In this document: one piece after another, positions 2,705 through 17,989 of the stretch
How positions within the stretch are numbered: the stretch's first letter is position 1
How the letters are laid out: every line of letters begins with the position of its first letter
DNA from: Actinomycetota bacterium
GTDB lineage: Bacteria; Actinomycetota; Coriobacteriia; Anaerosomatales; Anaerosomataceae
Direction of reading: 5' to 3'
DNA: 64,000 bases
NCBI GenBank assembly: GCA_009773565.1
Contig: WSXY01000001.1
Location: 62,001 to 126,000 of the forward strand
Translations under genes and position numbers: made by a program
Notes under the pieces: model-generated
What the model saw: the letters and a program-made list of their open reading frames with translations, nothing else
Told to the model about the DNA's origin: nothing
The model's database searches: none

Positions 2705-3505
2705 CTAGCCCTCCTGCCTGATCAGATGCTCGACGAGTTCGGTGTAGTCGGCCGCGCCATGGCTCTTCGGCGCGTAGGACAGCACGCTTCGACCCTCGGC
2801 GTGCGCCTCGCCGATTGCCACGTTTTTGCGAATCGCAAGAGGGTAGAGCAGCCCGGGGAACTGCTCCTCGACAGCCGACGCGATACTGCGGTGCAGTCCC
2901 GTACCGCCCTCGTACTGGGTGAGTAGGATGCCGGCTATTCCTAGGTCCTCGTTGACGCCGGCGTCGATCGTCTCGGCGATGACAGAGCCCAGCATCCCAA
3001 GCCCGCTGACGGCGAAGAGCCCCGGTGTGACCGGAACGATGACCTCACTGGCATAGGCGAGCGCGTTGGCGGTCATGATGCCGAGAGACGGCGGGCAGTC
3101 CAAGATGATGTAGTCGTAGTCGTCCTGCACACCCGGCGCCCGTGTGCCGCTTCCTGGATCGCGTCGGCCCTTCAGAGCGCGGGAGAGAAGGAAATCCCGG
3201 CCCGGCCGGCCGCCGAGATCGTAGTCGGCGCGAGACAGCATCTCAGAGGCGGAAAGCAGGGCGAACTCCGGGCCTGGCACGATAGCCTCTTCGGCGGTCA
3301 TGCTACCCGTCAACACGTCCCACAGGCTTCGCGCCGGTGGTGCGCCGAGCACGCCGGTGGTCAAGTGACACTGGCCATCGAGATCCACGACGAGCACGTC
3401 TCGTCCTTTGGCGGTGAGCCCTGCCGCGACGTTCCAGGCCGTGGTCGTCTTCCCGACGCCGCCCTTCTGTGAGGCGATGGCGATCCGCCTGGTCGTCTTC
3501 TGCAT
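2705..3505 (-). CDS. parA: ParA-family partition ATPase
   Basis: The 266-residue Walker-type ATPase carries SQKGGVGKTTTAWNVAA (deviant Walker A, near residue 13), VLVVDLDGQCH (A') and DYIILDCPPSLGIM (Walker B). It should form ATP-dependent dimers on DNA and move ParB-parS complexes. I chose the ATG at 3503-3505 because AAGGGA lies six bases upstream. Frames extending to 3568 would read through the promoter-like sequence at 3540-3568. The leader resembles those of the RadC-like gene and the gene at 7127-7390, which suggests shared control. It heads the parA-parB-CpaE-membrane-secreted series. Confidence 0.9.
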   Translation of the reverse strand: MQKTTRRIAIASQKGGVGKTTTAWNVAAGLTAKGRDVLVVDLDGQCHLTTGVLGAPPARSLWDVLTGSMTAEEAIVPGPEFALLSASEMLSRADYDLGGRPGRDFLLSRALKGRRDPGSGTRAPGVQDDYDYIILDCPPSLGIMTANALAYASEVIVPVTPGLFAVSGLGMLGSVIAETIDAGVNEDLGIAGILLTQYEGGTGLHRSIASAVEEQFPGLLYPLAIRKNVAIGEAHAEGRSVLSYAPKSHGAADYTELVEHLIRQEG

Positions 3506-3539
3506 CCGTGTTCCCTTCATCGATTCGCGGGCAGCGCCC

Positions 3540-3568
3540 ACTTGAGCGTACCGAGCGGCCATTGGCAC
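3540..3568 (-). promoter_or_regulatory. Conserved element promoter/operator (parA copy)
   Basis: Read on the minus strand, a GTGCCA -35-like hexamer, a 17-base spacer containing CGGTACGC, and TCAAGT as a -10-like hexamer lie 35 bases before the parA start. The arrangement and spacer match the copies at 6811-6839, 7428-7456 and 14335-14363, although the hexamers are weaker here. Confidence 0.5.
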
Positions 3569-3589: not shown

Positions 3590-5110
3590 CTAAGACGACA
3601 GGCCGTCGCGTGGGTCGAGCGTCATTCCGCGGCCCCCGTCCGCGCGCCCGGTCGGGCGTGTGGCTCGTCCGAGCCTGCCCCAGTCGATCCGTGCAACCTC
3701 CTGGGCCGTCCGCGAGCTCTGTGGGGACAGATGCCGTGACACCTGCTCGAGCAGGTGGAGCGTGGCCGCAGTCTGCTGCAGCCCCGCCGAGAGCTCGGGG
3801 AGCGCGTTCTCGTTGCGCCACGCCGCCCACTCGGACGGGCGGAGCGGTTGGGCTTCTGCGAAGACGGCCGCAATGCGGGTCGCCGTCGTCTCAATCGGCT
3901 CGTCGCCCCGACACGACTTGACCATCACGCTGGCGGCCGTGTTCTCGTCGATCCCCGCGGTCATGAGAGCTCGGGCGTAGAACACACGTGTGGGCTCGGG
4001 CGCCCCTTGGAGCAGGTGGTTGCGGGCCACCAGCGGAGCAGTTCGTATGATGCCTTCGCCTGTCCTCAGGAGCTGGATGCTCACGGCGGCCTGCAGCACG
4101 TCGGGAGCCAGTCGCGCTCGCACGTCCACCTCTGCGTTGACGCGCGCGGATGCGAGCTCATCGGGATCGGCGGTGTGATGGCGCTTGAGCTCCACCGCCG
4201 CGTCGGCATACGCAGTGACCTGCTCGGCGATCGGCGCCACCGACACCAGCTTGTCCACGATCCGATCGACTGCGGCCTTCGTCTCAGGTGAGACGTACTT
4301 GTATGCAGCTCGGCCGCGTCCAGGCAGTGTGCGCGACAAGGCATCCAGGTCGCGCGTGAGGCCTGAGACCGTAGGGAGGGCGAGCCCCGCTCCAATCCGC
4401 CGCCGTTCCTCGACGGCCAGAGAGAGGGATGTGGTGCCGAACATGCGGACCTCGGAGCGCGCGCGGCCCTTAGCCTCATACACACCTTCGCGCACTGCGC
4501 CGTAGATCTCGCGGGTGAAGGCCCCGCGAAGGGCCTTCAGCCGAGGAGCGGGTATGTGGCCTGCTCCCGCTCGCCGCTGGGGGACTACTCGCTTGAACGC
4601 GGGACTGTCGGCCCTGTCCCAGAGCATGATGTGCGCATGCGGATGCCCGGCCACGGGATTGTGGTGGGCCGCCACCCAGCGCATGTTCTCGCGCGGGATT
4701 CCGGTAGCCGTGGACAGAGCATCGACGCTGGCGCGAACGTGGCGCTCCCACTGCGCCTTGGAGTCCAGGCCAAGCTCCTCGGCGTCAGCTCGGCTGACGG
4801 AGACGATCACGCGGTAGAGCGGGGCGTGCGAAAGCCCTGCGAGCTCATCGGTGACGGAGGCAAGATCGGGGATGCCGTTCTCGTCGAACAAGCCGTGGGC
4901 CCCGCCGTCGGCGGCCACGCCGGGGCGCTCGGCGATGTAGCGGGTGTACGTGGCGTCGTCCGCAACATCGCGAGTCACCATCCGCGCGACGGAATCGGCC
5001 GTGACGGTCAGGTCCGTGCCGGGCCGCGTGGCTATGTAGGCGGCGTGCGCGCCGTCCCCGGCGCTCGGAGCGGCGTAGCTGACTTTGACGACGAGAGGCC
5101 CGAGTGTCAC
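3590..5110 (-). CDS. MobL/MobP-type conjugative relaxase
   Basis: This 506-residue protein should nick the element at oriT and lead the transferred strand into the recipient. The metal-binding histidine motif HHNPVAGHPHAHIMLW starts at residue 149, typical of MobL relaxases. The N-terminal region (KVSYAAPSAGDGAHAAYIA) and the RVIVSVSRADAEELGL segment also fit that family. The C-terminal half is helical and Ala-rich with no obvious helicase motifs. The GTG start overlaps the stop of the upstream MobC-like gene by four bases (GTGA), so the two are coupled. The hairpin-rich region on the other side of that gene is the likely substrate. Confidence 0.8.
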   Translation of the reverse strand: MTLGPLVVKVSYAAPSAGDGAHAAYIATRPGTDLTVTADSVARMVTRDVADDATYTRYIAERPGVAADGGAHGLFDENGIPDLASVTDELAGLSHAPLYRVIVSVSRADAEELGLDSKAQWERHVRASVDALSTATGIPRENMRWVAAHHNPVAGHPHAHIMLWDRADSPAFKRVVPQRRAGAGHIPAPRLKALRGAFTREIYGAVREGVYEAKGRARSEVRMFGTTSLSLAVEERRRIGAGLALPTVSGLTRDLDALSRTLPGRGRAAYKYVSPETKAAVDRIVDKLVSVAPIAEQVTAYADAAVELKRHHTADPDELASARVNAEVDVRARLAPDVLQAAVSIQLLRTGEGIIRTAPLVARNHLLQGAPEPTRVFYARALMTAGIDENTAASVMVKSCRGDEPIETTATRIAAVFAEAQPLRPSEWAAWRNENALPELSAGLQQTAATLHLLEQVSRHLSPQSSRTAQEVARIDWGRLGRATRPTGRADGGRGMTLDPRDGLSS

Positions 5111-6839: not shown

Positions 6840-7093
6840 GGACTATTCTCAAAATACTTGCAGGTCAGAGCATGTTTTTTGGCAGAGAGCCGGACGCCTC
6901 AACCTTGGCCGCCCGAACATCGCCGACCCCATCCCCCATCTTCCATGCCGAAGATCTGGCGGTCGCAGCCGAGGCGCAGCCGGTGAGGAGTCCTCGGCGG
7001 ATGGTGCCGAGGGCGAACGACAGCCGGGGCGGCTCGGCGGGTGCGGGCGTTCGGCCCTGGCCGACCTTGGCGCTATGCACGAGTGCAGAGCGG

Positions 7094-7121
7094 TGGGCCC
7101 CCGGACGAATCCGGGGGCCCA
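7094..7121 (-). terminator. Perfect 12-bp hairpin after the HTH gene
   Basis: Arms TGGGCCCCCGGA (7094-7105) and TCCGGGGGCCCA (7110-7121) pair perfectly around a CGAA loop (TTCG on the minus strand, a very stable tetraloop). The hairpin lies a few bases after the minus-strand stop at 7127. There is no U-run. Confidence 0.55.
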
Positions 7122-7126
7122 GAGGC

Positions 7127-7390
7127 CTACAGTGCCAGCCACGTCTCCTCGTCGACAATCTCCTCGAACAGGTCGTCGAAGTTCATGTTCAAGACTCCCG
7201 CAAGATCATCGAGCACGTAGAAGTTGATGCGCCTCTTGTGTAGCGCGACGGCCATCCATTCTGAGGACTTGCCAAGCAACTCGCTCGCCTCGCGGTTGTT
7301 GACGAATCGGCGGCGCAGCACCAGGCGCAACTTCGCGGGGTCGATGGGGATTGATGTTGCCGGCCGCACCCGCTTCTTGGTTTCGCTCAT
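7127..7390 (-). CDS. XRE-like helix-turn-helix regulator
   Basis: The protein has 87 residues from the ATG at 7388-7390, with AAGGGAGC eight bases upstream. The segment LRLVLRRRFVNNREASELLGKSSEWMAVALHKRRINFYVLDDLAGVL has the spacing of a XRE/Cro-type helix-turn-helix, followed by an acidic tail (FDDLFEEIVDEETW). Its own promoter carries the conserved element operator, so it is a good candidate for the autoregulated regulator of the parA, RadC-like and 14087-14317 promoters. That link is inferred from shared sequence only. Confidence 0.6.
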   Translation of the reverse strand: MSETKKRVRPATSIPIDPAKLRLVLRRRFVNNREASELLGKSSEWMAVALHKRRINFYVLDDLAGVLNMNFDDLFEEIVDEETWLAL

Positions 7391-7427
7391 CTGTCTTGCT
7401 CCCTTCGGTTGGCTTGCTGACACCTCT

Positions 7428-7456
7428 AGTGTAGCGTACCGCGCAACTCATGGCAA
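7428..7456 (-). promoter_or_regulatory. Conserved element promoter/operator (HTH gene copy)
   Basis: TTGCCA, a 17-base spacer (TGAGTTGCGCGGTACGC) and TACACT are read on the minus strand, followed about 38 bases later by the start codon. Apart from two spacer changes it is identical to the copy at 6811-6839, and the flanking ACACTAxAGGTGTCAGCAAG is conserved too, so leader and promoter were duplicated together. Confidence 0.65.
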
Positions 7457-7490
7457 GACGTAACGGGAAGAAAGCTGCAGGTAAATGGCA

Positions 7491-7766
7491 CTATTCTGAC
7501 GGAGCCGCCTCGCGCTCGACGATGATGTGTGAGGCATGACGAGTTCGGACGGCGCTCATCGCCAGCTCGTCTGGGTGTGCGAGGTCGGACAGCATGTCAC
7601 GACCTGCCTCGTACTGTCGTTCGATTGCTCGCTCGATGTCCGTCAGCGCGCGCTCCGCCTCGCGCTCGTCCCCCGACACCGGCACCGCGAACGTGTCACC
7701 GGGGGCAAGCATGAGAGCCTTCGCGGCTATGGCGTCGATTCGGGCGTCTCTATCATCGGCGGTCAT
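7491..7766 (-). CDS. Hypothetical small acidic protein
   Basis: The 91-residue protein starts at the ATG at 7764-7766 with AAAGG upstream, in a leader (CGATGAAAGGA) similar to that of parA. The sequence is mostly helical and charged (REAERALTDIERAIERQYEAGRDML) with no cysteines or membrane span. I recognise no family. The region upstream holds only a degenerate likeness of the conserved element promoter. It sits between the HTH gene and the IS30 remnant. Confidence 0.5.
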   Translation of the reverse strand: MTADDRDARIDAIAAKALMLAPGDTFAVPVSGDEREAERALTDIERAIERQYEAGRDMLSDLAHPDELAMSAVRTRHASHIIVEREAAPSE

Positions 7767-7877
7767 CTGCGGTCCTTTCATCGACTCAGACAACAGGGAG
7801 GCTAGCACGCATCGCTTTCCGGCCGCTTACCCCGCCGTTTCCACGCCGAGGGTCTAGCAGTCACAGTACCGAGCCCG

Positions 7878-8039
7878 CAATCACCGATGATACGCGCAGA
7901 CTGCGACTGGGTCGCCGCCAAACTCAACTCACGGCCGAGGAAACGACTGGACTACAAGACCCCGGAGGAACGCTATGCCGCGACCAGGTAGGCGTCAGAA
8001 AGCTAGGACTCAGTGGTGCAGTTCAAAGTTGAACTTACG
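7878..8039 (+). pseudogene. IS30-family transposase C-terminal remnant
   Basis: Plus-strand translation from 7905 gives DWVAAKLNSRPRKRLDYKTP and then EERYAATR before a stop at 7989. This is the hallmark C-terminal segment of IS30 transposases (LNxRPRKxLxYxTPxE). In the same frame, after a second stop at 8004, SVVQFKVELT resembles the family's last residues. No catalytic DDE portion, start codon or left terminal repeat remains. The fragment lies where the attC of the DinB-like cassette would be expected, so an insertion and later decay may have removed it. Confidence 0.65.
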
Positions 8040-8073
8040 TGCTCCGCGGCGCGCGAACACCGATTGTCCGCTT

Positions 8074-8511
8074 CTACCGAGAGGGCAGGACTCCCTCAAT
8101 TTGATCCAGGTGCTCGCGGCGGTGCTGCGCTCGTTCGAGACTGCGTACCTTGCCGTTGGACTGGATGACCTCAGCCAGTTCCGGCGGGACAGATTGCGCC
8201 TCGAGGTCCACGGCGTCCGCCGCGCTGCGAACCATGTCGGCGGCGGTGCGATCCGGGATGGCGGCGGCCAGGACGAGGACGGCGGAGTTCAGCGCCTCGA
8301 AGTTCGTCTGCGAAACCCAGAACCCTGAGTCCTGCCACTGCCGTAGACACGAGCGGGTGTACTCGTCCCAGAACGCCAGGTGTACGAGTACGTTTGCTAC
8401 GGTGAGGCCGTTCGGGAGAATGCGAGCTAGGTCGTCGTCAGAGAGGCGCGCGAGCAGCGTGTGGAGCCGGTCACGCTCGACGTCGTTGGCGGACACATAT
8501 GCAGGCTTCAA
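8074..8511 (-). CDS. DinB-like four-helix protein (cassette gene)
   Basis: The 145-residue protein has a TTG start at 8509-8511 preceded by AAGGTGG. The segment LTVANVLVHLAFWDEYTRSCL resembles the metal-histidine helix of the DinB/YfiT-like (maleylpyruvate isomerase N-terminal) fold. Such proteins are often thiol-dependent transferases or of unknown function. The gene begins about 45 bases after the GTTAGAT end of an attC-like site, as expected for the first gene of an integron cassette. Its own downstream attC is not visible and may be lost at the IS30 remnant. Confidence 0.6.
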   Translation of the reverse strand: MKPAYVSANDVERDRLHTLLARLSDDDLARILPNGLTVANVLVHLAFWDEYTRSCLRQWQDSGFWVSQTNFEALNSAVLVLAAAIPDRTAADMVRSAADAVDLEAQSVPPELAEVIQSNGKVRSLERAQHRREHLDQIEGVLPSR

Positions 8512-8555
8512 CTCGTCACCACCTTAGCATGCTGAACACCGGTCTTCAGGGATGC

Positions 8556-8611
8556 ATCTAACGTCCTAGGGATAAACCACAATGCGAAGCGTTGGCGGGT
8601 GTTTGTTAGGC
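8556..8611 (-). repeat. Integron attC-like site 1
   Basis: On the minus strand the site begins with GCCTAAC (R'', fits RYYYAAC) and ends with GTTAGAT (R', fits GTTRRRY), 56 bases in total. The ends are the classical integron core sites, and the following GTTAGATGC is typical of cassette junctions. The internal stem is imperfect, weaker than in the sites at 11750 and 12590. It lies after the ABC permease gene and before the DinB-like gene. Confidence 0.5.
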
Positions 8612-8683
8612 GCTTCACAGCGCCCATCGACCGCAACACCGTTGATCCCTCAGCAGTATCGCCTTCCCGCGACGGGCAGTGCG

Positions 8684-10189
8684 TCATTCCCTCGAGAAGC
8701 GCACCATCAAGCCTAGAAGAACCACGATTGCGACCGCCGCGGCGCAGGCCAACCACAGTGAGCCTGCCGCGCCAGCATAGAGCACGATGCAGGCGCTGAT
8801 TGTGGCACTGATGCCGTAGCCGATGGGCGCTCGCATCCGCGGCAGCGTCAGCCGCTCAAGCCCTCGGCACATCACGGCGATCACCCCGAACATCAGGCAG
8901 AGTAGCGCCCCAAGAACCCGCTGTTCGGACGCCATCGTCTGTACTGCCATCGCAACCGCCGATGTTCCGACGGTGATGGCAAGCACGGGCACCGAGTCGA
9001 TCAACAGCAGGCTCAGGTTGTCGAAAGGCAGCACCTCGCGCAGGGACGGGCGATCGATGTCCTGCTGGAACACGTGCAGAAGCTGCCTGGATGGACCGAC
9101 CACAAAGAAGAACACCGGCGGGAAATACGCCAGGAGCCCTGGTGGATGAATCACCGTGACCGCCACGTACGGCAGCAGAGCCGCGCCCCAAAGGACCGGC
9201 CATACCAGCGACCCGGGCTGCCGGACATGCGACACGAGAGCTCGCGCGACTAGAGCCCAAGCCCCCCCTCCGCTCGGTAGGTGCCACATGGGCTTACGCG
9301 CCGCCAGCCGCTTGCGGCGAGCGATGTCCGCATACGCGCCCGCGTCGTAGCGCTGAAGCGGGCGGAATACCTCAAGTTGCGCGTAGAGCGCGCTTCCGTC
9401 GATGACGGCGACCATGTCCATCTTGCTCGCGGCGACGACCACCAACCACACGTCGATCACACTGACCACGAGCAAGGCCAGCACGTGCCCTGCCACCGGT
9501 GCGCCGTTCAGCGCCAGCACCAGCGCGGTCCCCGGCCACCGGACGGCGGCGGGCGGAAGCAGGAGCGCCAGTGCTACCAGTGGTGCGGCGACCCATGACA
9601 CCGAGCGCCTAGCCCGGGATCCGATCCGGATGCGCGCGAGTCCAGCCGCCCAAGCAAGCAGGAAGACCGCGGACACCAGCAAGGCGCCGACAACAGCCGT
9701 CGAACCCGCCGCAGTCTGCGGCGAACCCATTCCCACCGCGACACTGCCGGCCAGATAGCTCAAAGGAACGGCAGCAAGCGTCGCCGGGATGACCTCGCGA
9801 AGGCAGCTCGAGAGCGCGACCGCGCGCCTGTCGAGCGCGGACGCCCCGACGTAGGCGATATCGGGGAATGTGAGTTTGACCGGCGAGGAGCGCAGGGTCC
9901 GAAAGCCGAGCGCTCCCACGAGAAGGCTCGGAACCACGAACGCCAGGGCCACCACAGCAGGGCGCATGGATGCCCCGAGACCGGCCCCCGCGCCCATCGC
10001 TTCGCTGGCCGCAGCCGCCATCATCGCCACGAACCATGCGCCGAACAGCACCACAAGGTAGATGAGGTAGGTGCGCTCACCGATCAACGCGGAGCCTAGG
10101 TCGGCTCCCGCCAACGCCGCCCAGTAGTCGGCGCGTCCGCGTGCGTGACGCCACCGCAGCCACACGAGCAGCATCAGGTCACTCATCAT
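8684..10189 (-). CDS. ABC transporter permease, multi-span membrane protein
   Basis: The 501-residue protein has about 10-12 hydrophobic spans, arranged as N- and C-terminal clusters around a central soluble loop (FRPLQRYDAGAYADIARRKRLAAR). The ATG start overlaps the stop of the ATPase gene (ATGA), so both are co-translated and form an exporter-type ABC system. Substrate cannot be inferred. The frame extends further upstream, but that would overlap the ATPase by 80 bases. The gene ends about 70 bases before attC-like site 1, so the ATPase-permease pair could be a two-gene cassette. Confidence 0.7.
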   Translation of the reverse strand: MMSDLMLLVWLRWRHARGRADYWAALAGADLGSALIGERTYLIYLVVLFGAWFVAMMAAAASEAMGAGAGLGASMRPAVVALAFVVPSLLVGALGFRTLRSSPVKLTFPDIAYVGASALDRRAVALSSCLREVIPATLAAVPLSYLAGSVAVGMGSPQTAAGSTAVVGALLVSAVFLLAWAAGLARIRIGSRARRSVSWVAAPLVALALLLPPAAVRWPGTALVLALNGAPVAGHVLALLVVSVIDVWLVVVAASKMDMVAVIDGSALYAQLEVFRPLQRYDAGAYADIARRKRLAARKPMWHLPSGGGAWALVARALVSHVRQPGSLVWPVLWGAALLPYVAVTVIHPPGLLAYFPPVFFFVVGPSRQLLHVFQQDIDRPSLREVLPFDNLSLLLIDSVPVLAITVGTSAVAMAVQTMASEQRVLGALLCLMFGVIAVMCRGLERLTLPRMRAPIGYGISATISACIVLYAGAAGSLWLACAAAVAIVVLLGLMVRFSRE

Positions 10190-10929
10190 GCGGGCGACTC
10201 CGCGGACTCCAGCGCCGATCGAAGCAGCCCATCGAGCGTGTTCGCGCAGTCGGTTCCGAGTCCGGCCCACGGTCCCTCGTCGACGATCGTGCCGCCGTCG
10301 AGCACGAAGAAGCGGTCAGGAGCAGCGCCTTCCGGCAGCTGATGGCTGCTGAGAAGCACCGAGCCGCCGGTAGATGCGAGCGTGCGCAACTCCAACCACA
10401 ACTCCCTTGCGGACACCGGGTCGATGGGGCCGAACGGCTCGTCAAGCAGAAGCAGCCGCGGTCGTAACGCGAGGGCGAGCACGAGTGCGAGTTTGTAGCG
10501 CATGCCGCGCGAGAACGTCGACGGGTAGGCGTCGGCGGCATCGCCCAAGCCGAATGTGTCCAGCAGCCGCTCTGCTTCGGCCTCACGCTGCCCCAAACGG
10601 TTCGCGCGCAGCACGAAAGTGACGTGTTCACGCGCGGTGAGATCATCGTAAAAAGGTGGGGTGTCTGTGACCAGGACGAGTTCGCGGCGCAGCTGCCTGT
10701 CGGCTACGCCATACGGCTGTCCAAGGACCTCGACACGACCCTCGCCCGGCGAGCTCCACCCTGCGGCGCAACGCAGCAGAGTGGACTTTCCGGCGCCGTT
10801 GCGACCGATCAGGACGGCGATCTCGCCCGCGGCAACTGACAGATTGACGTCTCGCAGCACCGGCGCCTGGGCGTACGAGAATGCAACGTCGCGCATCGTC
10901 AGAGTGCTTGTTGGGGCTTCGATCGTCAC
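10186..10929 (-). CDS. ABC transporter ATP-binding protein
   Basis: The 247-residue nucleotide-binding subunit has Walker A GRNGAGKST (near residue 42), the signature-like FSRGMRYKLALVLAL, Walker B LLLLDEPFGPID and the switch histidine in VLLSSHQL. The usual LSGGQ is altered to FSRGM, as in many CcmA/NatA-type exporters. The GTG start at 10927-10929 has GAGG six bases upstream. It overlaps the permease gene by four bases. The 260 bases before it hold the degenerate attC at 11068-11151 and no further gene. Confidence 0.85.
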   Translation of the reverse strand: MTIEAPTSTLTMRDVAFSYAQAPVLRDVNLSVAAGEIAVLIGRNGAGKSTLLRCAAGWSSPGEGRVEVLGQPYGVADRQLRRELVLVTDTPPFYDDLTAREHVTFVLRANRLGQREAEAERLLDTFGLGDAADAYPSTFSRGMRYKLALVLALALRPRLLLLDEPFGPIDPVSARELWLELRTLASTGGSVLLSSHQLPEGAAPDRFFVLDGGTIVDEGPWAGLGTDCANTLDGLLRSALESAESPA

Positions 10930-11067
10930 GGTCCACCTCGCGTCGTGTAGTACCCGCTAATCTACCCAGAGAGAGCAGTCATCGCGAACTCCCCGGGCAC
11001 CCAGACTCGCACATCCGAGGAATCGAAGACATCGGCGCACCCAACTCATGCGATCGCCAGCAATGCG

Positions 11068-11151
11068 CCTACGTGTTTAGGTTTGAGCGGCGGGTTTGCC
11101 GCTTTCTTCCATGCTATACCTTGCGCCGTCCGCTCGGAACCTTGGTTAGCC
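11068..11151 (-). repeat. Degenerate integron attC-like site 4
   Basis: On the minus strand the site starts GGCTAAC and ends near GTAGGC, a GTTAGGC core lacking one base. The arms GAGCGG-A-CGG and CCG-CCGCTC pair with one extrahelical A, the feature that distinguishes attC stems from ordinary hairpins. It lies 40 bases after the stop of the GrpB-family gene, where its attC is expected. Confidence 0.4.
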
Positions 11152-11191
11152 GGGACGCTCGCGCCCATCATCCACGCCTATGGGGCGCCAC

Positions 11192-11734
11192 CTACTCGTG
11201 GATGCCTGGCAACAGAATCGACTCGCGTTGATCATGAGCCGCCAGATAGGCTGCCAGAAGAGAATCGATGAACCGCTCCTTGGCCTGCCGATACGAGGCC
11301 ATACTCCGACCGACATAGCGCGATTTCAGGTCGTTGTACTCGTTCAGTGCGTCCGAGTCCGATTCCAGTGCCGCCTTCACGTAGTGGAAGTGATTGTCGA
11401 TGTCGCTGCCGACGACCACCAGCTGAATGGACACGGACGCTCCATCGACCGAGTAGTCATACTCCGCGTACTCGAGCGTTCGCTCGTTCCTCGAGCTGGG
11501 GATGAGCAGTTCGTCCAGAACGAGTTGCGCCTTAAGGAAATCCGCCGCGCCGACTCTGACGAGGACATCAAGATCACCCTTGGTCAGACTGCCTGCCACG
11601 GCAGTGCTGCCAACATGTTCAATAGCCGAAGAGGGGAGTCGCGCGAAGAGATCCGCAGCGATCGTGCGGAAGAGTCGTCGCGCCTGCGAGGTATCAGCGG
11701 CGGACAGCGTGAACAGTTCCTGCTCGTCAGTCAT
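11192..11734 (-). CDS. GrpB-family (UPF0157) nucleotidyltransferase-like protein (cassette gene)
   Basis: The 180-residue protein has the family pattern IEHVGSTAVAGSLTKGDLDVLVRV (read in two parts, residues about 38-61), a GS...DxD nucleotidyltransferase core, followed by LQLVVVGSD-like and YNDLKSRYVG segments. GrpB/UPF0157 proteins are frequent cassette passengers, and their substrate is unknown. The ATG lies only about 20 bases after the GTTAGCC end of attC 2, leaving no room for a normal promoter, which is typical of integron cassettes expressed from outside. Confidence 0.8.
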   Translation of the reverse strand: MTDEQELFTLSAADTSQARRLFRTIAADLFARLPSSAIEHVGSTAVAGSLTKGDLDVLVRVGAADFLKAQLVLDELLIPSSRNERTLEYAEYDYSVDGASVSIQLVVVGSDIDNHFHYVKAALESDSDALNEYNDLKSRYVGRSMASYRQAKERFIDSLLAAYLAAHDQRESILLPGIHE

Positions 11735-11749
11735 GGCTGCCTCGTTTCC

Positions 11750-11834
11750 GGCTAACGTGTTGCGCCTGAGCAGACGCCCGCGCTTATCCTGGTCAGTCTA
11801 GCTCTTGGCGTTCTGCTCGATACGCTTGTTAGCC
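11750..11834 (-). repeat. Integron attC site 2
   Basis: Outer sites GGCTAAC and GTTAGCC pair perfectly. The inner arms GAGCAG-A-ACGCC and GGCGTCTGCTC pair with a single extrahelical A, as in genuine attC folds. Most of the 85-base site is highly similar to attC 3, including the loop segment TAGACTxACCAGGA. The upstream gene's stop codon lies inside it. Confidence 0.8.
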
Positions 11835-12565
11835 ATCGCCCCACACTGCTCAGTGAACAGATTAACCAGTCGCTCGTGCACTTCGACCGCGGCAATCGTC
11901 TGAGGCGTTAGGGCATCCACAACCTCTTGAAGAGAAACCGGTGCCTCGACCGTGAGCATCTCGACTCCATTGGGAAGTCGCACGTGCTTACGCCGAGATC
12001 CCATCGCGATGTTGTTGGGTGCGCCGTGGTGAAACTCATTCCGAAACCCGCGAGTTGCGCGCCGATAGGCAGCGTTGTTGAGGGTGCCCAGCGCACGGTG
12101 CAGCGGTGGCCAGGAGTCCCAGAACTGCGCCATGTACTGCGCGAGCTCACGCTTGGAGTGCCCGAGCTCACCATAGTCGGGCCAGGATGGAACCAGGCGT
12201 CCATTCGCATGGTTGGAGACGACCGCAATGTCGTGAAAGCAGCGCCCCTTGATCGCGGCGGGCGCCTCCAGACAGTAGTAGGCAAGCGGCAATGCCAGCT
12301 CGAAGACAACGTCGAATTGCTCATTCTCGTCGAGGCCGACAACCAGCGTGGTCAGCGCACGTAAGCGCCGGAGATTGAACACGAACGAATTGACGAAGTT
12401 GCCAAGATCCTGGATCGACTGCTGTGCGGTCACGGAGAAGGCATCGCCGAATGGAAGACCGGCGCACTTGAGCCGGGCATCGGTCGCCAGCCGTGGCTTT
12501 TCTGGCAGGGCCAGCCGCAAGCGGCGCCATTCGCGATACAGCTGAACAGCACGGTCTTCGTCCAC
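11798..12565 (-). CDS. Cassette protein of unknown function with RNEFHH motif
   Basis: The 255-residue soluble, mostly helical protein starts at a GTG (12563-12565) about 25 bases after the end of attC 3. A conserved-looking RGFRNEFHHGAP segment resembles the Rx4-6H motif of HEPN ribonucleases, and the helical layout fits, but this is only a suggestion. The last 11 codons (ANKRIEQNAKS) are read from within attC 2, a pattern well known among integron cassette proteins. No membrane span or signal peptide is seen. Confidence 0.65.
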   Translation of the reverse strand: MDEDRAVQLYREWRRLRLALPEKPRLATDARLKCAGLPFGDAFSVTAQQSIQDLGNFVNSFVFNLRRLRALTTLVVGLDENEQFDVVFELALPLAYYCLEAPAAIKGRCFHDIAVVSNHANGRLVPSWPDYGELGHSKRELAQYMAQFWDSWPPLHRALGTLNNAAYRRATRGFRNEFHHGAPNNIAMGSRRKHVRLPNGVEMLTVEAPVSLQEVVDALTPQTIAAVEVHERLVNLFTEQCGAMANKRIEQNAKS

Positions 12566-12589
12566 TGCCGGCCCCCGGTTCCTGCGAAT

Positions 12590-12675
12590 GGCTAACGCAT
12601 TTGCGCATCAGCTGCGCGCCGATGCCGTCCTGGTAAGTCTACCGCTTGCGCGTCAGCTGGATGCGCTTGTTAGCT
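12590..12675 (-). repeat. Integron attC site 3
   Basis: The 86-base site begins AGCTAAC and ends GTTAGCC on the minus strand. The arms GCGCATC-C-AGCTG-A-CGCGC and GCGCGCAGCTGATGCGC pair along 17 bases with two extrahelical bases (C and A) on one side only. That asymmetry is the structural signature by which integron integrases choose the attC strand. It starts eight bases after the stop of the lipoprotein gene. Confidence 0.85.
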
Positions 12676-12682
12676 CGATCGC

Positions 12683-13240
12683 CTAGCGCTGAACCGGCGC
12701 TTCGACGAGCGAGGTCACGGTGCCGCCTGTCACGGTCACGAACCAGTAGGACTCTTGGTAGGCCGCACTGTTCTTGCCTCCACCGTTGAGATCCGCGAAG
12801 AAATCAACATACGACAAGGGCATTGGAGCGGACGCGTCCACATACGGCTGTCCGAGCGGTGCGTTTACGTAGACGCCTCCGAGCGGATCGAGAACAAGCG
12901 ACTGGTGATACGTCGACTCGTTGGTGATCGTTGTGCCGTGGACCGGGACCGACCACAGGCCCTCTGTCGAGACCCAGTCGACCTCGAACCGGATGGTGCC
13001 CGTGCTGCCGGGAAAGATGCGCCCCAGATAGACACCCGCAGTCGCATCTTTGGCAGGCTCCGGATTTGGACGTAGGTACATCAGCTGATCGGCCCATCCG
13101 GCACGCACAGTGGTCGCGGTGGATTCGTCGCTTACGGCCGGCGTCGAGGGAGACACCGTAGGTGCACCGCAACCGGACAGCATCCCGACGAGCGCGCCGA
13201 GAAGCAACACGACGAGCAGTCGACCACTGGAGCCTGTCAC
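12683..13240 (-). CDS. Putative lipoprotein (cassette gene)
   Basis: The 185-residue protein has a lipoprotein signal: GRLLVVLLLGALVGMLSGCG, with the lipobox LSGC at residues 21-24. A Ser/Thr/Pro linker follows and then a beta-rich domain with RFEVDWVSTEGLWSV and TTITNESTYHQS. It would be exported and anchored to the outer face of the membrane. The GTG at 13238-13240 is chosen because GAGGAG precedes it by six bases; a longer frame to 13300 is less likely. It is immediately followed by attC 3. The domain is not recognised. Confidence 0.65.
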   Translation of the reverse strand: MTGSSGRLLVVLLLGALVGMLSGCGAPTVSPSTPAVSDESTATTVRAGWADQLMYLRPNPEPAKDATAGVYLGRIFPGSTGTIRFEVDWVSTEGLWSVPVHGTTITNESTYHQSLVLDPLGGVYVNAPLGQPYVDASAPMPLSYVDFFADLNGGGKNSAAYQESYWFVTVTGGTVTSLVEAPVQR

Positions 13241-13359
13241 GGCGATCTCCTCGATTCGAGCTAGCAAAGATTCTGCAGTCTGCATAACAGGATATGACAA
13301 GAGACCCCAGCGTGTCTGCCGAGGTCCCTTCAGTGGAGAATAACGAATTTCGACGCCTT

Positions 13360-13578
13360 CTACGCGCGTGTGACGCGCGAGAATGCAGTCTCGTCCGCGA
13401 CCTCAAGCGGCGGCATTCCGCCTTCGATTGCATCCGCGATCGCCGCGGCGGCGGCGAGCGCACTCGGATACCATTCCTCAAGCGCGGTGGTGGCGAGACC
13501 GCCGGGCATCACAACTCGCACACCGCCACCGTCCGCAGCAACGATTCGGTAGAGGTCCCGACTCTCGTACACGCTCAT
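13360..13578 (-). CDS. Small hypothetical protein
   Basis: The 72-residue protein (MSVYESRDLYRIVAADGGG...) starts at an ATG whose first bases overlap the stop of the upstream DNA-binding gene (ATGA), so it is probably coupled to it. It is predicted as a short beta segment followed by an Ala-rich helix (YPSALAAAAAIADAIEGG). No family is recognised. It closes the three-gene operon 14317-13360. Confidence 0.55.
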   Translation of the reverse strand: MSVYESRDLYRIVAADGGGVRVVMPGGLATTALEEWYPSALAAAAAIADAIEGGMPPLEVADETAFSRVTRA

Positions 13579-14087
13579 CGCCCCTCCCGCTTCTTCTTGA
13601 TGGCGGGTAGCGCGTCTGGCAACACGACCCACGGACTCTTGTGAGCCGCAGGTTCGAGCTTCCTGGAGTACGGCACGACGCCTTTGTACATGTCCGCCCG
13701 CAGAGTCTTGGCAGGCATCCCGACAATCGCCGCCGCTTCGTCGGCGAGCATCAACTCCGACAGGAACAGACCGACGAGGCGATCTGCCTCTTCCGGTCCG
13801 AACAGTTCGCCCAAAGCCTCACGCGCCGTCTGCGGCCGGCCGGGTATCGGCTCGCGCACGACCACCCAGCGGGGTTGGCCGTGTGGTTTCACCGACTCGG
13901 ACATGAGCCTCGCGTGCTTCGTGTCGCCCTGCGACAGTCGGTACTCGAAGACGCTGAGCGACATGCCGAGCTCGGCGGCTGCCTCGCGCTTCGTCATGAG
14001 ATCTTCCAAGAACATCTGAGTGAGGCGATCGGCCTCATCAGCCCCTACTCGACCGACTAACTCAGCGTGCGCGGTTCTCTTGGTCAT
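13575..14087 (-). CDS. Protein with two tandem HTH-like repeats
   Basis: The 170 residues consist of two copies of a roughly 75-residue unit. GADEADRLTQMFLEDLMTKREAAAELGM (near residue 15) and GPEEADRLVGLFLSELMLADEAAAIVGM (near 97) align closely, and each is followed by a recognition-helix-like segment and a PRWVV/SPWVV strand. Each unit looks like a helix-turn-helix with a small wing, so the protein may bind a two-fold site as a monomer. The start overlaps the upstream stop codon (TGATG). A regulator or element-specific DNA-organising role is inferred. Confidence 0.6.
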   Translation of the reverse strand: MTKRTAHAELVGRVGADEADRLTQMFLEDLMTKREAAAELGMSLSVFEYRLSQGDTKHARLMSESVKPHGQPRWVVVREPIPGRPQTAREALGELFGPEEADRLVGLFLSELMLADEAAAIVGMPAKTLRADMYKGVVPYSRKLEPAAHKSPWVVLPDALPAIKKKREGR

Positions 14088-14317
14088 CAGCTATGTCCCT
14101 CCTCAGTTACCTCCTCTCGTGCACCGAGGAGGAATCTCTCCACGAAGTTGAGCCCTTTGGTTACGTTCTCTTCCATCCTGAGACTCAGCGCTTGCTCAAG
14201 AGCATTGCCCTGGTCCGTCCAGTCGGTCAGCCTGTCGCACTTTTCTTCCATCGCCAGACGGATCGTGGCAAACGCGCGTATCACGTCGCGCTTCTTGACG
14301 TCCTTGAACTCTCTCAC
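14087..14317 (-). CDS. Small helical protein, first gene of regulatory operon
   Basis: The 76-residue protein is all helical and charged (RDVIRAFATIRLAMEEKCDRL). A GTG start at 14315-14317 has AGGAGG eight bases upstream. The conserved element promoter lies so close (14335-14363) that the leader would be only about 10 bases. It is coupled by a one-base overlap to the tandem-HTH gene. No family is recognised. Confidence 0.55.
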   Translation of the reverse strand: MREFKDVKKRDVIRAFATIRLAMEEKCDRLTDWTDQGNALEQALSLRMEENVTKGLNFVERFLLGAREEVTEEGHS

Positions 14318-14334
14318 GCGCCGATCCTCCTCTC

Positions 14335-14363
14335 AGTGTGGCGTACCGCGTGACTGATGGCAA
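14335..14363 (-). promoter_or_regulatory. Conserved element promoter/operator (third copy)
   Basis: TTGCCA, a 17-base spacer (TCAGTCACGCGGTACGC) and CACACT are read on the minus strand. The match to the copies at 6811 and 7428 covers both hexamers and the CGCGGTACGC core. The short distance to the GTG start at 14317 would put the ribosome site at the transcription start, so the sequence may act mainly as an operator here. Confidence 0.55.
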
Positions 14364-14375
14364 TGCATACGGGGC

Positions 14376-14891
14376 TCAGTGATCTGGCATCTTCCAAGCC
14401 TCGGCGAGGTGCCGGATGAGGTTTTCCACAGGCATTTCGCCGGTGACGGTTGAATCTGATGTCTTGTCTGACGTACCGGGTGAAGTGGGCTTCACCCTTG
14501 CCGTGCTTGCATGGGTGAAGCCCACTTCACCCATGTCGTGCAGTGCGCTACACCCGTCCACCGCGCCCTGTGGAGAACTCCCCCGCGGTTGGTAGACCAG
14601 AGGCAGCGCCTCGATTGCTGCGACATTGATGACGAAACGGTTTGAGAATCCACGGTGCTTCTTGGTCTGCGGATCGGTGAACCGTCCGCCCTTGGCGACG
14701 ATTCGCACCAGATCGGCTGCGATGAGGTCGTTGACGTTGTTGATCGCGGAACGCCTTGAGCAGCCGAGCTTGCCCGCTAGCTCGTCGTACGACGGCCAGC
14801 AGAAGCCGTCGTCACTTGCCCGGTCGGCAAGGATCAGGAGTGTGAGCTTGAGATGGGGTTTGCCGCCGTAGCGCTTGATGACCGCGCCCAT
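14376..14891 (-). CDS. Winged-helix protein, putative replication initiator
   Basis: The protein has 171 residues from the ATG at 14889-14891, 20 bases after the excisionase-like gene. The N-terminal part (KPHLKLTLLILADRASDDGF, WPSYDELAGKLGCSRRSAIN) is an HTH_36-type winged helix found in plasmid and phage replication proteins and regulators. The C-terminal 70 residues are Ser/Thr/Pro-rich and low in predicted order. A 20-bp inverted repeat lies inside the coding region (14478-14532), as in replication genes that contain their own origin. A transcription regulator remains possible. Confidence 0.6.
   Translation of the reverse strand: MGAVIKRYGGKPHLKLTLLILADRASDDGFCWPSYDELAGKLGCSRRSAINNVNDLIAADLVRIVAKGGRFTDPQTKKHRGFSNRFVINVAAIEALPLVYQPRGSSPQGAVDGCSALHDMGEVGFTHASTARVKPTSPGTSDKTSDSTVTGEMPVENLIRHLAEAWKMPDH
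14478..14532. repeat. Nested 20-bp inverted repeats inside putative rep gene
   Basis: GGGTGAAGTGGGCTTCACCC at 14478-14497 and its exact reverse complement at 14513-14532 are separated by 15 bases. Each arm is itself a palindrome of GGGTGAAG/CTTCACCC, giving four 8-base half sites in alternating orientation. Such iteron-like, cruciform-forming repeats within an initiator gene suggest an internal origin. Confidence 0.6.
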
Positions 14892-14910
14892 GACCGAAAT
14901 GCTCAATGGA

Positions 14911-15270
14911 CTAGGTCGGGTCGCCTGGGGATTGTTCCGGCGGGATGTGCGAGATGGCCGCCTGCGTAACGCGGAGTCGTCCCCCCACGCGATACGTCGA
15001 AATCTCCCCCGAATGGATCTTTCTGCGCAGCCACTCGCGCGTGCAGTGAAGCACCTTGCAGGCCTCATCAATCGTGAGACCGTTCTCGTCGAGCTGCGCC
15101 GGTCCGATGCCGGCCGTCTCGCCTTCGAGCCCGTCCGTCCGATCAAGTGACGTCCCCTGCTCGGCGTCGCAGTGTGTGTCAGATCCGCAATTGTCTGAGA
15201 TCGTGTCGCCCCCCTCTGGTTGAAAACCGCAGCTAGCGCAAGCCTTGTCGGTAAGGTCCTCGTTAGACAT
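14911..15270 (-). CDS. Excisionase-like HTH protein with cysteine-rich N-terminus
   Basis: The 119-residue protein's last 50 residues are an HTH_17/excisionase domain (LTIDEACKVLHCTREWLRRK, then GEISTYRVGGRLRVTQAAI). The first 55 residues are unusual: acidic with six cysteines (ACASCGF...DNCGSDTHC), possibly metal binding. Xis proteins bend the attachment-site DNA and steer the integrase towards excision. The ATG at 15268-15270 overlaps the preceding gene by a few bases. A GTG two codons earlier is an alternative start. Confidence 0.65.
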   Translation of the reverse strand: MSNEDLTDKACASCGFQPEGGDTISDNCGSDTHCDAEQGTSLDRTDGLEGETAGIGPAQLDENGLTIDEACKVLHCTREWLRRKIHSGEISTYRVGGRLRVTQAAISHIPPEQSPGDPT

Positions 15271-15762: not shown

Positions 15763-16662
15763 GTGACATCGCGAATCAGCTCGGTATCACCCGCCGCCCT
15801 CGTGGACTTCCAGTGGTGGCGCATGGCAGAAGGCCGATGGATCGGCCTTAAGAACCAGCGTCTATTGGCGGGCCACCCCGCAGATGATGGCTATCAGCCC
15901 CTGAAGAGCGAGCCGGCGCTGTTCCGGAGATTCGCGGATCAACGAGACTCTGAAGACGCTTTCGCGGCGTTCGCTGCCAGGTACGGCGATCTAGATGGCG
16001 GCGGCGTGGTGGTTGTCGACGACCACATGGCGACTGGCGAGGAGATGGCGAGCAGTGACCCGTTCCTCGTGTACTCGGAGGGTCGCAGCCTCCAGATCTG
16101 GCGGGGGCACCGCCAGATGCTCGCCTTCGCGGTTCGACTCTGGGACGCAATCAACGAAGGAAGGGCTGACGAGTTGATAGGTACGGATCTGCTCGTGAAG
16201 CCATACGACTCCCTCGTCGAGCCGGGCAAGCCCGCACCCAAGTACATGGTCTGGACACGCACCGCATCCGCGCAGCATGACCTGGGATTGACCACTCCGA
16301 AGACGTTCGACGAGCAGTTCGAGCCGGCCACGCCGCTCATGAAGGCAAGCCTTCCGGAAGTGGCGGCTCGTGCTGCTCTCGCCAATCTCGTGTCCGAGAT
16401 GTGCGCGACCGTGCGGGTGGTGATGCGAGTAACGAGCGCACAGCCGGGCGGTCTTCGACTCACATTCGAAGTTCGGTCGCTCATAGCGGCAATGTGGCTG
16501 CAGTTTGCGCTCGCGGTCGACGGGCAGCGAGAGTATCGCCCCTGTCCGGTCTGTGGCGACTGGTGGGATGCGACCGAGGCCCGGTCTGATAGGAAAACCT
16601 GCAGCGACCGATGTCGCAAGCGAATGCATCGCCAAGCAGTGTCTGGAGTAACCGGAGTATGA
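15763..16662 (+). CDS. Zinc-finger protein upstream of integrase
   Basis: The protein has 299 residues from a GTG at 15763 that has GGAGG eight bases upstream; the ATG at 15748 lies before that ribosome site and is less likely. The body is an unrecognised mixed alpha/beta domain. The C-terminus has a CGNR-like zinc finger, CPVCGDWWDATEARSDRKTC followed by SDRCRKRMHRQ (C-x2-C ... C-x3-C plus basic residues). Proteins of this layout often sit beside integrases in actinobacterial elements. The stop overlaps the integrase start (ATGA). Confidence 0.6.
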   Translation: MTSRISSVSPAALVDFQWWRMAEGRWIGLKNQRLLAGHPADDGYQPLKSEPALFRRFADQRDSEDAFAAFAARYGDLDGGGVVVVDDHMATGEEMASSDPFLVYSEGRSLQIWRGHRQMLAFAVRLWDAINEGRADELIGTDLLVKPYDSLVEPGKPAPKYMVWTRTASAQHDLGLTTPKTFDEQFEPATPLMKASLPEVAARAALANLVSEMCATVRVVMRVTSAQPGGLRLTFEVRSLIAAMWLQFALAVDGQREYRPCPVCGDWWDATEARSDRKTCSDRCRKRMHRQAVSGVTGV

Positions 16663-17954
16663 AAGGCCACGTGCAGCCCTACAAGAAGAACGGCGCGGTA
16701 GTCCGCAATCGGTGGCGAATCGCCATTGACCGTGGTCGAGACGGTGCAGGCAGTCGCCAACGGGACTACTACTACTTCACCGGATCAAAGGCTGCAGCCG
16801 ACCGGGAGATGAGACGACTACTCACCTCTGCCGACAAGGGTATGTACGTCAAGCCCGAAGGCCAGAGCGTGGCCGACTGGCTCGACACATGGATCAAGGA
16901 CTATGCGCCGATCGGACGGGCGGGCTCGACGCTCAAGGGTTATCAGGGAATCATCAGACGCTACCTGAAGCCCGAGCTGGGACAGCTGCGACTTCAGAAG
17001 TTGAGCGCAGAGGCCATCCAGGCGCTGTACACACGCATGCAGCTACCCAAGGCGAACGGCGGACTCGGGCTTTCGGCACGCACCGTGATTCAGACACACG
17101 CCGTGCTGCACAAGGCCCTTTCGCAGGCCGTAAGGCTGGATAGGATCGCGTTCAATCCGGCTGACACCGAACGTGGAGTCGAACTGCCGCGACCGAAGCG
17201 ACATCGAGTCGAGGTACTCAGCGAACACAAGGTTGCCGAGCTTCTGAATGCGGTTGCGGGGACTCGACTGCATCTGCCCGTACTGCTCGCTGTCACGACT
17301 GGGATGCGCCGCGGCGAGATCCTGGCGCTTTCCTGGGATGACGTCGACCTAGTGCGTGGCACGATCTCGGTCGTGCGGGCGTGGGATGAGGGGTCCAACG
17401 GCTACCAACTCAAGGATCCGAAGAGTGAGAGGTCGCGCCGAACCATTGAGGTACCGGCGATCTTAGTCGACGCGCTCGCGTTCGCGAAGAACGAACACGA
17501 GGAGCGCCGCGCACGTCGAGAACTCGCCGGCGAGGGCTACCAGCTTGAGTACGGACCACTCGTCTTCACTGAAGAGGACGGCGAGCCGTGGTGGCCGTCG
17601 CGTTTCGAGTGGGTCTGGCAGGAGTTCAGAAAGTCCTCGCGTCTGGCACCGCGGTTTCACGACCTGCGCCACACTGCGCTATCGCTCATGCTCAGACAGG
17701 GCAACAGCCCGAAGGTCGTCCAAGAGATTGCCGGTCACCACTCTTCGGCATACACGATGGACACCTACTGCTGGTCCGATCGCCGCACCCAGAGAGCCGC
17801 GGCCGACAGCATCGGCGACCTGTTCAGCGGCGCCTTGGGTGCAATGGAAATCAAATCGGGCGACAAATCGGGCGACAAATCAGAGGCCGTACCCACTCTG
17901 ACCTGCGAACAAATGGTGCCCCCAAGGGAATTCGAATCCCTGTTGCCGCCTTGA
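16659..17954 (+). CDS. int: Tyrosine site-specific integrase
   Basis: This 431-residue phage-type integrase has an N-terminal AP2-like arm-binding domain (RWRIAIDRGRDG, YYYFTGSKAAADREMRRL), a SAM-like core-binding domain (about 65-165) and a catalytic domain with Arg in TGMRRGE (about 214), HDLRHTA (about 333), GHHSSAYTMDTYCW and the nucleophile Tyr at about 370. The last 13 codons (VPPREFESLLPP) and the stop are read from the antisense strand of the tRNA-Glu gene, so the attachment core forms part of the coding sequence. It is not an IntI: the catalytic domain lacks the extra integron-specific patch as far as can be judged. Confidence 0.95.
   Translation: MKGHVQPYKKNGAVVRNRWRIAIDRGRDGAGSRQRDYYYFTGSKAAADREMRRLLTSADKGMYVKPEGQSVADWLDTWIKDYAPIGRAGSTLKGYQGIIRRYLKPELGQLRLQKLSAEAIQALYTRMQLPKANGGLGLSARTVIQTHAVLHKALSQAVRLDRIAFNPADTERGVELPRPKRHRVEVLSEHKVAELLNAVAGTRLHLPVLLAVTTGMRRGEILALSWDDVDLVRGTISVVRAWDEGSNGYQLKDPKSERSRRTIEVPAILVDALAFAKNEHEERRARRELAGEGYQLEYGPLVFTEEDGEPWWPSRFEWVWQEFRKSSRLAPRFHDLRHTALSLMLRQGNSPKVVQEIAGHHSSAYTMDTYCWSDRRTQRAAADSIGDLFSGALGAMEIKSGDKSGDKSEAVPTLTCEQMVPPREFESLLPP
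17914..17954. other. Attachment site core within tRNA-Glu 3' end
   Basis: The integrase coding region runs into the tRNA gene up to the stop at 17952-17954. This implies that at least the CCA end, T arm and variable loop belong to the sequence duplicated on integration. The exact core length requires the other att copy, which lies outside the window. Confidence 0.6.
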
Positions 17955-17989
17955 AAGGGCGGAGTCCTTGGCCACTAGACGATGGGGGC
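17914..17989 (-). tRNA. tRNA-Glu (anticodon TTC)
   Basis: The 76-base cloverleaf includes an encoded CCA. The acceptor GCCCCCA pairs with TGGGGGC. The anticodon stem CCGCC/GGCGG encloses the loop CTTTCAA, giving anticodon TTC. The T arm contains GATTCGAATTC-type pairing. It lies 13 bases before tRNA-Lys on the same strand and serves as the integration target of the element. Confidence 0.95.

Follow-up and report, generated by a model that had tools for sequence, protein, structure and literature searches.

Clusters of attC sites lacking integron integrases (CALINs) are often regarded as degraded integrons (PMC9024848). In hosts such as Shewanella and Xanthomonas, CALINs occur together with a resident integron integrase gene (intI) located elsewhere in the genome, and mobilisation of such cassettes in trans has already been proposed (PMC9024848, PMC9229058, PMC12444791); the integrase, IntI, is also known to use secondary sites (PMC12444791). 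A further report describes a cryptic Shewanella prophage, M16-3, with a CALIN that has its own attI, plus a complete integron, and phage-borne CALINs that include one in the actinobacterial Tetrasphaera phage TJE1, phage attC having been shown to be used by IntI1 (PMC9892861). Complete integrons have been reported absent from complete RefSeq Actinobacteria (PMC9024848). Here we analysed a 64-kb stretch of DNA (the window, C1:62001-126000) from the 2.27-Mb genome, in 25 contigs, of a subsurface actinobacterium of the family Anaerosomataceae (order Anaerosomatales, class Coriobacteriia; genome G000 below), in which a predicted integrative and conjugative element carries gene cassettes without an integron integrase. 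Judging from comparison of sequences, we find it quite probable that the region between 13265 and about 7860 serves this element as a cassette dock, on which the IntI of the host acts in trans.

The minus-strand genes of this region are separated by attC sites (Table 1). These were recognised with R1, a covariance model of the aligned bottom strands of 20 attC sites from the same genome, all outside the window, so that the window's own sites were held out of model building. When both strands of the window were scanned, attC A, B and C were found, the next match having an E value of only 2.5. The model stem shows compensatory changes in 9 of 16 pairs, and bottom-strand DNA folds compared with shuffles gave z scores of -3.2 for attC A and -2.3 for attC B, with a less clear -1.25 for attC C. 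Of the four sites and their bottom-strand stems proposed in the initial annotation, these three are therefore significant, and folding favours the first two most clearly; the fourth, site D at 8556-8611, was missed by R1, reached only E 0.47 with R3, a model of short attC sites (fourth best R3 match in the window), and folds no better than shuffles (z 0.28). The same annotation had described genes lying close behind each site, and this largely held: genes start 16, 25 and 45 bases past a site, the stop at 11798 falls within an attC, and the gene of cassette 1 begins 25 bases past attI and ends 8 bases ahead of attC A, the exception being the ABC (ATP-binding cassette) transporter ATPase, which starts 138 bases past its site. 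An exact RYYYAAC...GTTRRRY scan had missed the window sites, as their boxes vary, and covariance models were used instead; an Rfam scan of window positions 7000-15000 gave nothing relevant.

At the head of the array the element carries a predicted attI without intI. A profile made from the 24-nt left arms of 22 loci where attI lies beside intI, with no element site included, scores higher at 13265 of the minus strand than anywhere else in the window (25.8 bits; runner-up 13.4), and in the element copies L147, L148, L149, L153 and L154 its best match is the crossover base too. A 30-nt profile run over 517 kb gave 13 matches scoring 20 or more, four of them beside intI, four where the homology of an element copy breaks off, and five that head an attC array lacking intI or lie close to its head. 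If the cassettes had landed by chance at a secondary (attG-like) site, the resemblance to attI would be coincidental; the documented use of such sites by IntI, and satellite clusters on C17 and at 233 kb of C1 that lack attI, would fit such an event. The score at 13265, however, tops both the window and 60 shuffled windows (maximum 24.0) and falls at the break in homology, as it does in other copies, and we regard a chance landing as very improbable.

The backbone gene at 13575-14087, next to the array, has counterparts of 92-98% identity in 7 further genomes of the order; the 329 genomes sampled from other Coriobacteriia orders lack it, and the element was found in 8 of the 398 genomes of the class, in that single order only. 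Between copies the backbone is 85-91% identical. In those that bear attI, homology to the window is lost at 13260-13273 and returns at 7859, or in one copy at 7906; between these break points each copy has content of its own, without any stretch of 110 bp or longer in common. The conserved side terminates in ...GCAGACTGCAGAGTCCTTG, followed by TTAG, TTGG or CTAG, and column identity across the crossover of the seven attI-bearing copies falls from 88% before it to 45% after it. In L153 and L154 the final attC leads directly into the common flank G|TTAGGCCGTTCGAA, so that an undisturbed site would be expected to read CTTG|TTAGGCCGTTCGAA. The possibility, raised with the initial annotation, that orthologous loci would always hold these genes together as a fixed operon was not borne out, as the copies hold different genes. 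Variable content could also arise in a general cargo hotspot, where homologous recombination in the conserved flanks swaps genes and attI and attC are passengers, and three copies without attI (L146, L150 and L152) do have variable genes in the same area. The seven attI-bearing copies, however, all break at one base, the attI crossover, and are not scattered through the flank, and the junction of the last attC with the shared right flank in L153 and L154 falls at G|TTAGGCC; a hotspot of this kind appears improbable to us.

The sole full-length intI of the genome lies on another contig, at C3:99419-100360, with 481 bits against a cut-off of 265. Its product is full length, with the tyrosine-recombinase signature HTLRH, LLGH and Y and an IntI-like WGWQWVFP (by eye), and has its nearest relatives in metagenome-assembled genomes (MAGs) such as HGW-Actinobacteria-1 and -6; the former is genome G018 of our comparison, whose integron locus matches L046 in its attC coordinates. 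Downstream of intI, in the same direction, lie a toxin-antitoxin-like pair, an attI (C3:101081), one gene and then an attC like attC A; the pair, YefM/RelE-like by eye, is located at L001:2453-3024 between intI and attI. The attC at C3:101565 is 98.8% identical to attC A over 82 bp. Over the whole genome R1 found 43 attC sites at E values up to 1, including a main array split over the contig ends of C3, C24 and C1:248-261 kb, which would join into one, and satellite clusters on C7, C20, C12, C16, C17 and C1. The cluster at C17:103443-108368 and the site at C1:232997-233080 have no attI at their head and may be secondary-site insertions.

Within the element itself intI was not found: matches of the intI model on contig C1 fall only in the integrase at the tRNA site, tblastn of IntI gave none, and neither the window's element nor the surroundings of the dock in other copies showed an intI remnant. 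The absence of an integron integrase from the array, as initially annotated, is thus confirmed by both searches, and the element does not hold a complete or mobile integron, defined by intI beside attI and cassettes. It could be argued that the ancestor was a mobile integron that lost its intI, leaving behind a fossil CALIN in which cassette exchange has ceased. This would agree with the common view of CALINs cited above, with the worn look of attC C (degenerate R' box) and of the weak site D, and with the insertion-sequence-like remnant in the right flank. Besides the missing intI remnant, however, the different cassettes at the same crossover in each copy, on backbones so similar, are unlike a fossil, and the chromosome of this genome has an attC nearly identical to attC A. 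We consider such decay unlikely.

If the dock is served in trans, the chromosomal IntI would probably recombine cassettes, through the bottom strand of attC, into and out of the attI of the element, and conjugation would then move the dock with its cassettes into further members of the order, the majority of which possess an IntI themselves. Differing cassettes at one crossover base on similar backbones are the trace expected of such exchange. The attC sites, the homology of attI, the crossover junctions, the variable cassettes, the lack of intI in the element and the presence of IntI elsewhere in the host are read directly from the sequence; the action of the chromosomal IntI on the attI of the element, ongoing exchange and continued transfer of the element are what we infer. 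Transfer between hosts is supported by the comparison of G000 with G025, where backbone DNA is 90% identical and the IntI proteins 72% identical, and by the finding of a copy in a different family (G066).

Several findings weigh against this reading. The case is comparative throughout, and recombination itself was not observed. The window attI has CTAG, not TTAG, past the crossover; a pattern search allowing 3 mismatches found no empty dock in 69 genomes; and no cassettes common to the element and chromosomal or other arrays were found. The copies L146, L150 and L152 have the backbone without attI and other genes in the same area, so that the area of the dock may also be a general cargo site, and L149 and L151 have no significant attC past attI. 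Lastly, intI was not found in G021 and G066, two incomplete genomes with an attI-bearing copy.

The enzyme is widespread in the order. An intI above the cut-off is present in 22 of the 27 genomes of the family, from all 11 genera, and attC sites are present in 25; within the class, intI was found in 47 of 398 genomes, that is, 47 of 69 in Anaerosomatales and 0 of 329 in other orders, nearly always as one copy per genome. The search of related genomes called for at the outset recovered the attC type and intI broadly, with none of the latter beside copies of the dock. In G026 and G008, which are 98-99% complete, we found 36 and 7 attC sites and no intI; here the enzyme appears to have been lost and the cassettes retained. 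A separate, sequence-only attI model (R2), run on the 27 genomes, recovered the chromosomal attI in most of them, plus further sites on other contigs. All 18 attI sites without intI that have downstream attC show the correct attC orientation (Table 1), five of these being copies of the same element, so that the events are not all independent. For the sites in G016, G003, G006 and G023, tblastn of IntI found no intI nearby. Further matches were set aside because of a partial intI at a contig edge (G006:C23), because they lay at contig edges themselves (G021:C201 and G023:C8), or because no attC was seen in the sequence examined (G020:C126, G020:C47 and G016:C42). G016 has the most docks per enzyme that we saw, with six attI matches (C68, C74, C43, C18, C10 and C42) and one intI.

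An attC pair at C1:43279-44153 (L010:1279-2153), without a recognisable attI, lies just upstream of the coupling-protein gene of the element at C1:44222. The attI sites on C7 and in G022:C14 are similarly placed, and the C7 dock adjoins a coupling-protein gene. Together, the C7 dock and this pair suggest a second fixed dock upstream of the coupling-protein gene. One could picture the integron of the order as a distributed system, in which a single chromosomal IntI acts on a number of dispersed attI docks and elements act as cassette shuttles between hosts that would each provide the enzyme, with two fixed element positions, beside the backbone gene at 13575 and upstream of the coupling-protein gene, and a cargo that includes anti-phage genes; to us this wider picture is evenly balanced between being right and wrong. 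Regarding cargo, the G025 copy holds a Shedu SduA defence gene with attC (PADLOC E 1.7e-94), and the G066 copy a PDC-M49A-like candidate defence protein, also with attC (PADLOC 9e-39). These dock genes of anti-phage type, at L153:421-1640 and L154:6500-8690, are oriented opposite to attC and would need a promoter of their own.

The element belongs, on its gene content, to the integrative and conjugative elements. Its integrase adjoins tRNA-Glu (17914-17989), and the 26-bp end of this tRNA is found again near C1:34.79 kb, 45 kb further left, in agreement with the tRNA-integrated mobile element of the initial annotation. These repeats, the integrase, the weak MobL match of the probable relaxase, and the coupling and type IV secretion genes together support the assignment; the conjugation genes include a coupling protein (T4SS-DNA_transf, 6.2e-49), TrbL_4 (1.1e-25), a TraG/VirB4-like ATPase (TraG P-loop, 3e-15) and NlpC/P60. 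The tRNA-Glu attachment repeat has another copy at C1:5177-5220, which hints at an additional integrated element or island, some 30 kb long, in tandem. Restriction-type genes are also present in the left part of the element, namely a GmrSD-like protein and a C5 DNA methylase (L011:16597-18393 and L010:12569-13588), and at L010:15942-18617 lies the gene for an 891-aa element protein that combines SpaA-type repeats with a sortase domain.

Table 1. Features of the window and predicted attI sites without intI. Positions are those of the window unless a contig or copy is named.
Feature	Position	Strand	Remarks
ParA-type ATPase of element	2705-3568	-	
Probable relaxase	3590-5110	-	MobL, E 0.00028, below cut-off
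Transposase-gene-end-like remnant	~7860-8000		LDYKTPEERYAATR on + strand; read by eye, limits approximate
DinB-like gene	8074-8511	-	weak MDMPI_N and DinB_2 matches, below cut-off
attC-like site D	8556-8611	-	short, uncertain; outer boxes good: CCTAAC / GTTAGAT
Membrane protein open reading frame	8684-10187	-	directly after ATPase; start codon uncertain; no Pfam match
ABC transporter ATPase	10186-10929	-	PF00005, E 6.5e-28; probable two-gene cassette 4
attC C	11067-11151	-	degenerate R' box; R1 43.5 bits, E 6e-12
Cassette 3 gene	11192-11734	-	GrpB family; PF04229, E 6.9e-15
attC B	11750-11834	-	R1 56.7 bits, E 2.6e-16
Cassette 2 gene	11798-12565	-	RNEFHH protein; no Pfam or PADLOC match
attC A	12590-12675	-	R1 99.9 bits, E 1.5e-30
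Cassette 1 gene	12683-13240	-	lipoprotein-like; no Pfam match
Predicted attI without intI	13258-13288	-	left arm GTTATGCAGACTGCAGAATCTTTG (13288-13265); crossover 13265|13264, then CTAGCTC
Terminator-like hairpin	13301-13328	-	just upstream of attI; kept in all seven attI-bearing copies (alignment)
Small conserved backbone gene	13360-13632	-	upstream of dock; inside homologous stretch of attI-bearing copies
Backbone gene next to array	13575-14087	-	query for further element copies
Tyrosine integrase of element	16611-17954	+	PF00589 and PF14659
Attachment repeat	17914-17939		3' end of tRNA-Glu, 26 bp, TGGTGCCCCCAAGGGAATTCGAATCC
attI without intI, with attC, G000	C7, C12, C16, window		
attI without intI, with attC, G016	C74, C43, C18, C10		
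attI without intI, with attC, G003, G006, G023	G003 C123; G006 C34; G023 C24		
attI without intI, with attC, G014, G022	G014 C11 (two); G022 C14		
attI without intI, with attC, element copies	L147, L148, L153, L154		

As for the genes of the dock, the membrane protein is likely the permease partner of the ABC ATPase. The DinB-like gene, after which no recognisable attC was found, may not be a cassette, and the transposase-like remnant beyond it stands in place of the downstream flank present in other copies. PADLOC gave no matches for four genes of the cassette region, the ABC pair being outside that scan. When the window cassettes were compared with those arrays of other phyla that were examined none was shared, save for generic ABC ATPase matches, and the plasmid-borne GrpB relatives among the matches listed are 32-36% identical, all 16 being below 60%. 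These results bear on the proposal with which the analysis began, that an orphan cassette cluster moves cassettes between phyla. R1 does also score in integrons of Nitrospira, Cyanobium and Desulfobulbaceae MAGs, and the attC type is not unique to the order. The element, however, was found in one order only, no close cassette relative was found in the other phyla searched, and the cluster is not an orphan, as the genome holds a complete integron. Passage between phyla is accordingly the explanation that we find least credible of all. The view of the cluster as a CALIN survives in part, as no intI is adjacent; its isolation does not, given the chromosomal integron and the attI on the element at 13265, both overlooked in the initial annotation.

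These findings bear on the question of how large chromosomal integrons, themselves immobile, pass their cassettes from cell to cell. If our reading is true, a conjugative element with attI and no integrase would be a simple vehicle, loaded by the resident enzyme and unloaded by the enzyme of the next host. Sedentary integrons are also documented here as a regular feature of one actinobacterial order, in a phylum whose complete RefSeq genomes were reported to lack complete integrons (PMC9024848). The system supplies the parts for a direct test, namely the chromosomal IntI, the chromosomal attI, the attI of the element and attC sites, and our results suggest that CALINs elsewhere are worth searching for attI at their heads. 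Literature searches on integrons in Coriobacteriia, and on an attI-bearing CALIN on a conjugative element, gave no earlier report of this arrangement in the literature covered, which did not extend to subscription papers.

Compared with known systems, the window cluster fits the definition of a CALIN, having at least two attC sites and no intI found nearby, and it shares with the CALINs of Shewanella and Xanthomonas a resident intI elsewhere in the genome; it differs from them in being headed by an attI homologous to that of the host chromosome, in its constant position across a family of conjugative elements, and in content that varies from copy to copy. Like the CALINs of phages such as TJE1, its cassettes travel without intI on a mobile element, which however is conjugative and not a phage, and a conserved attI across a whole family is not reported for phages in the accessible part of that work (PMC9892861). 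Prophage M16-3 is similar in having a CALIN on a mobile element with attI at its head, but it is a single cryptic prophage with intI, whereas here we see a family of conjugative elements without it. The mobile integrons of classes 1 to 5, which reside on transposons and plasmids, likewise combine attI and a few cassettes on a transferable element, but they carry their own intI, unlike the element in the window. The host has a sedentary chromosomal integron with intI, attI and a long array, differing from others of its kind in its actinobacterial host order and in an intI that is co-directional with the cassettes. That CALINs may coexist with a resident intI and be mobilised in trans is accepted (PMC9229058, PMC12444791); the papers searched did not describe a dock that has attI, lacks intI and keeps one position throughout a family of conjugative elements.

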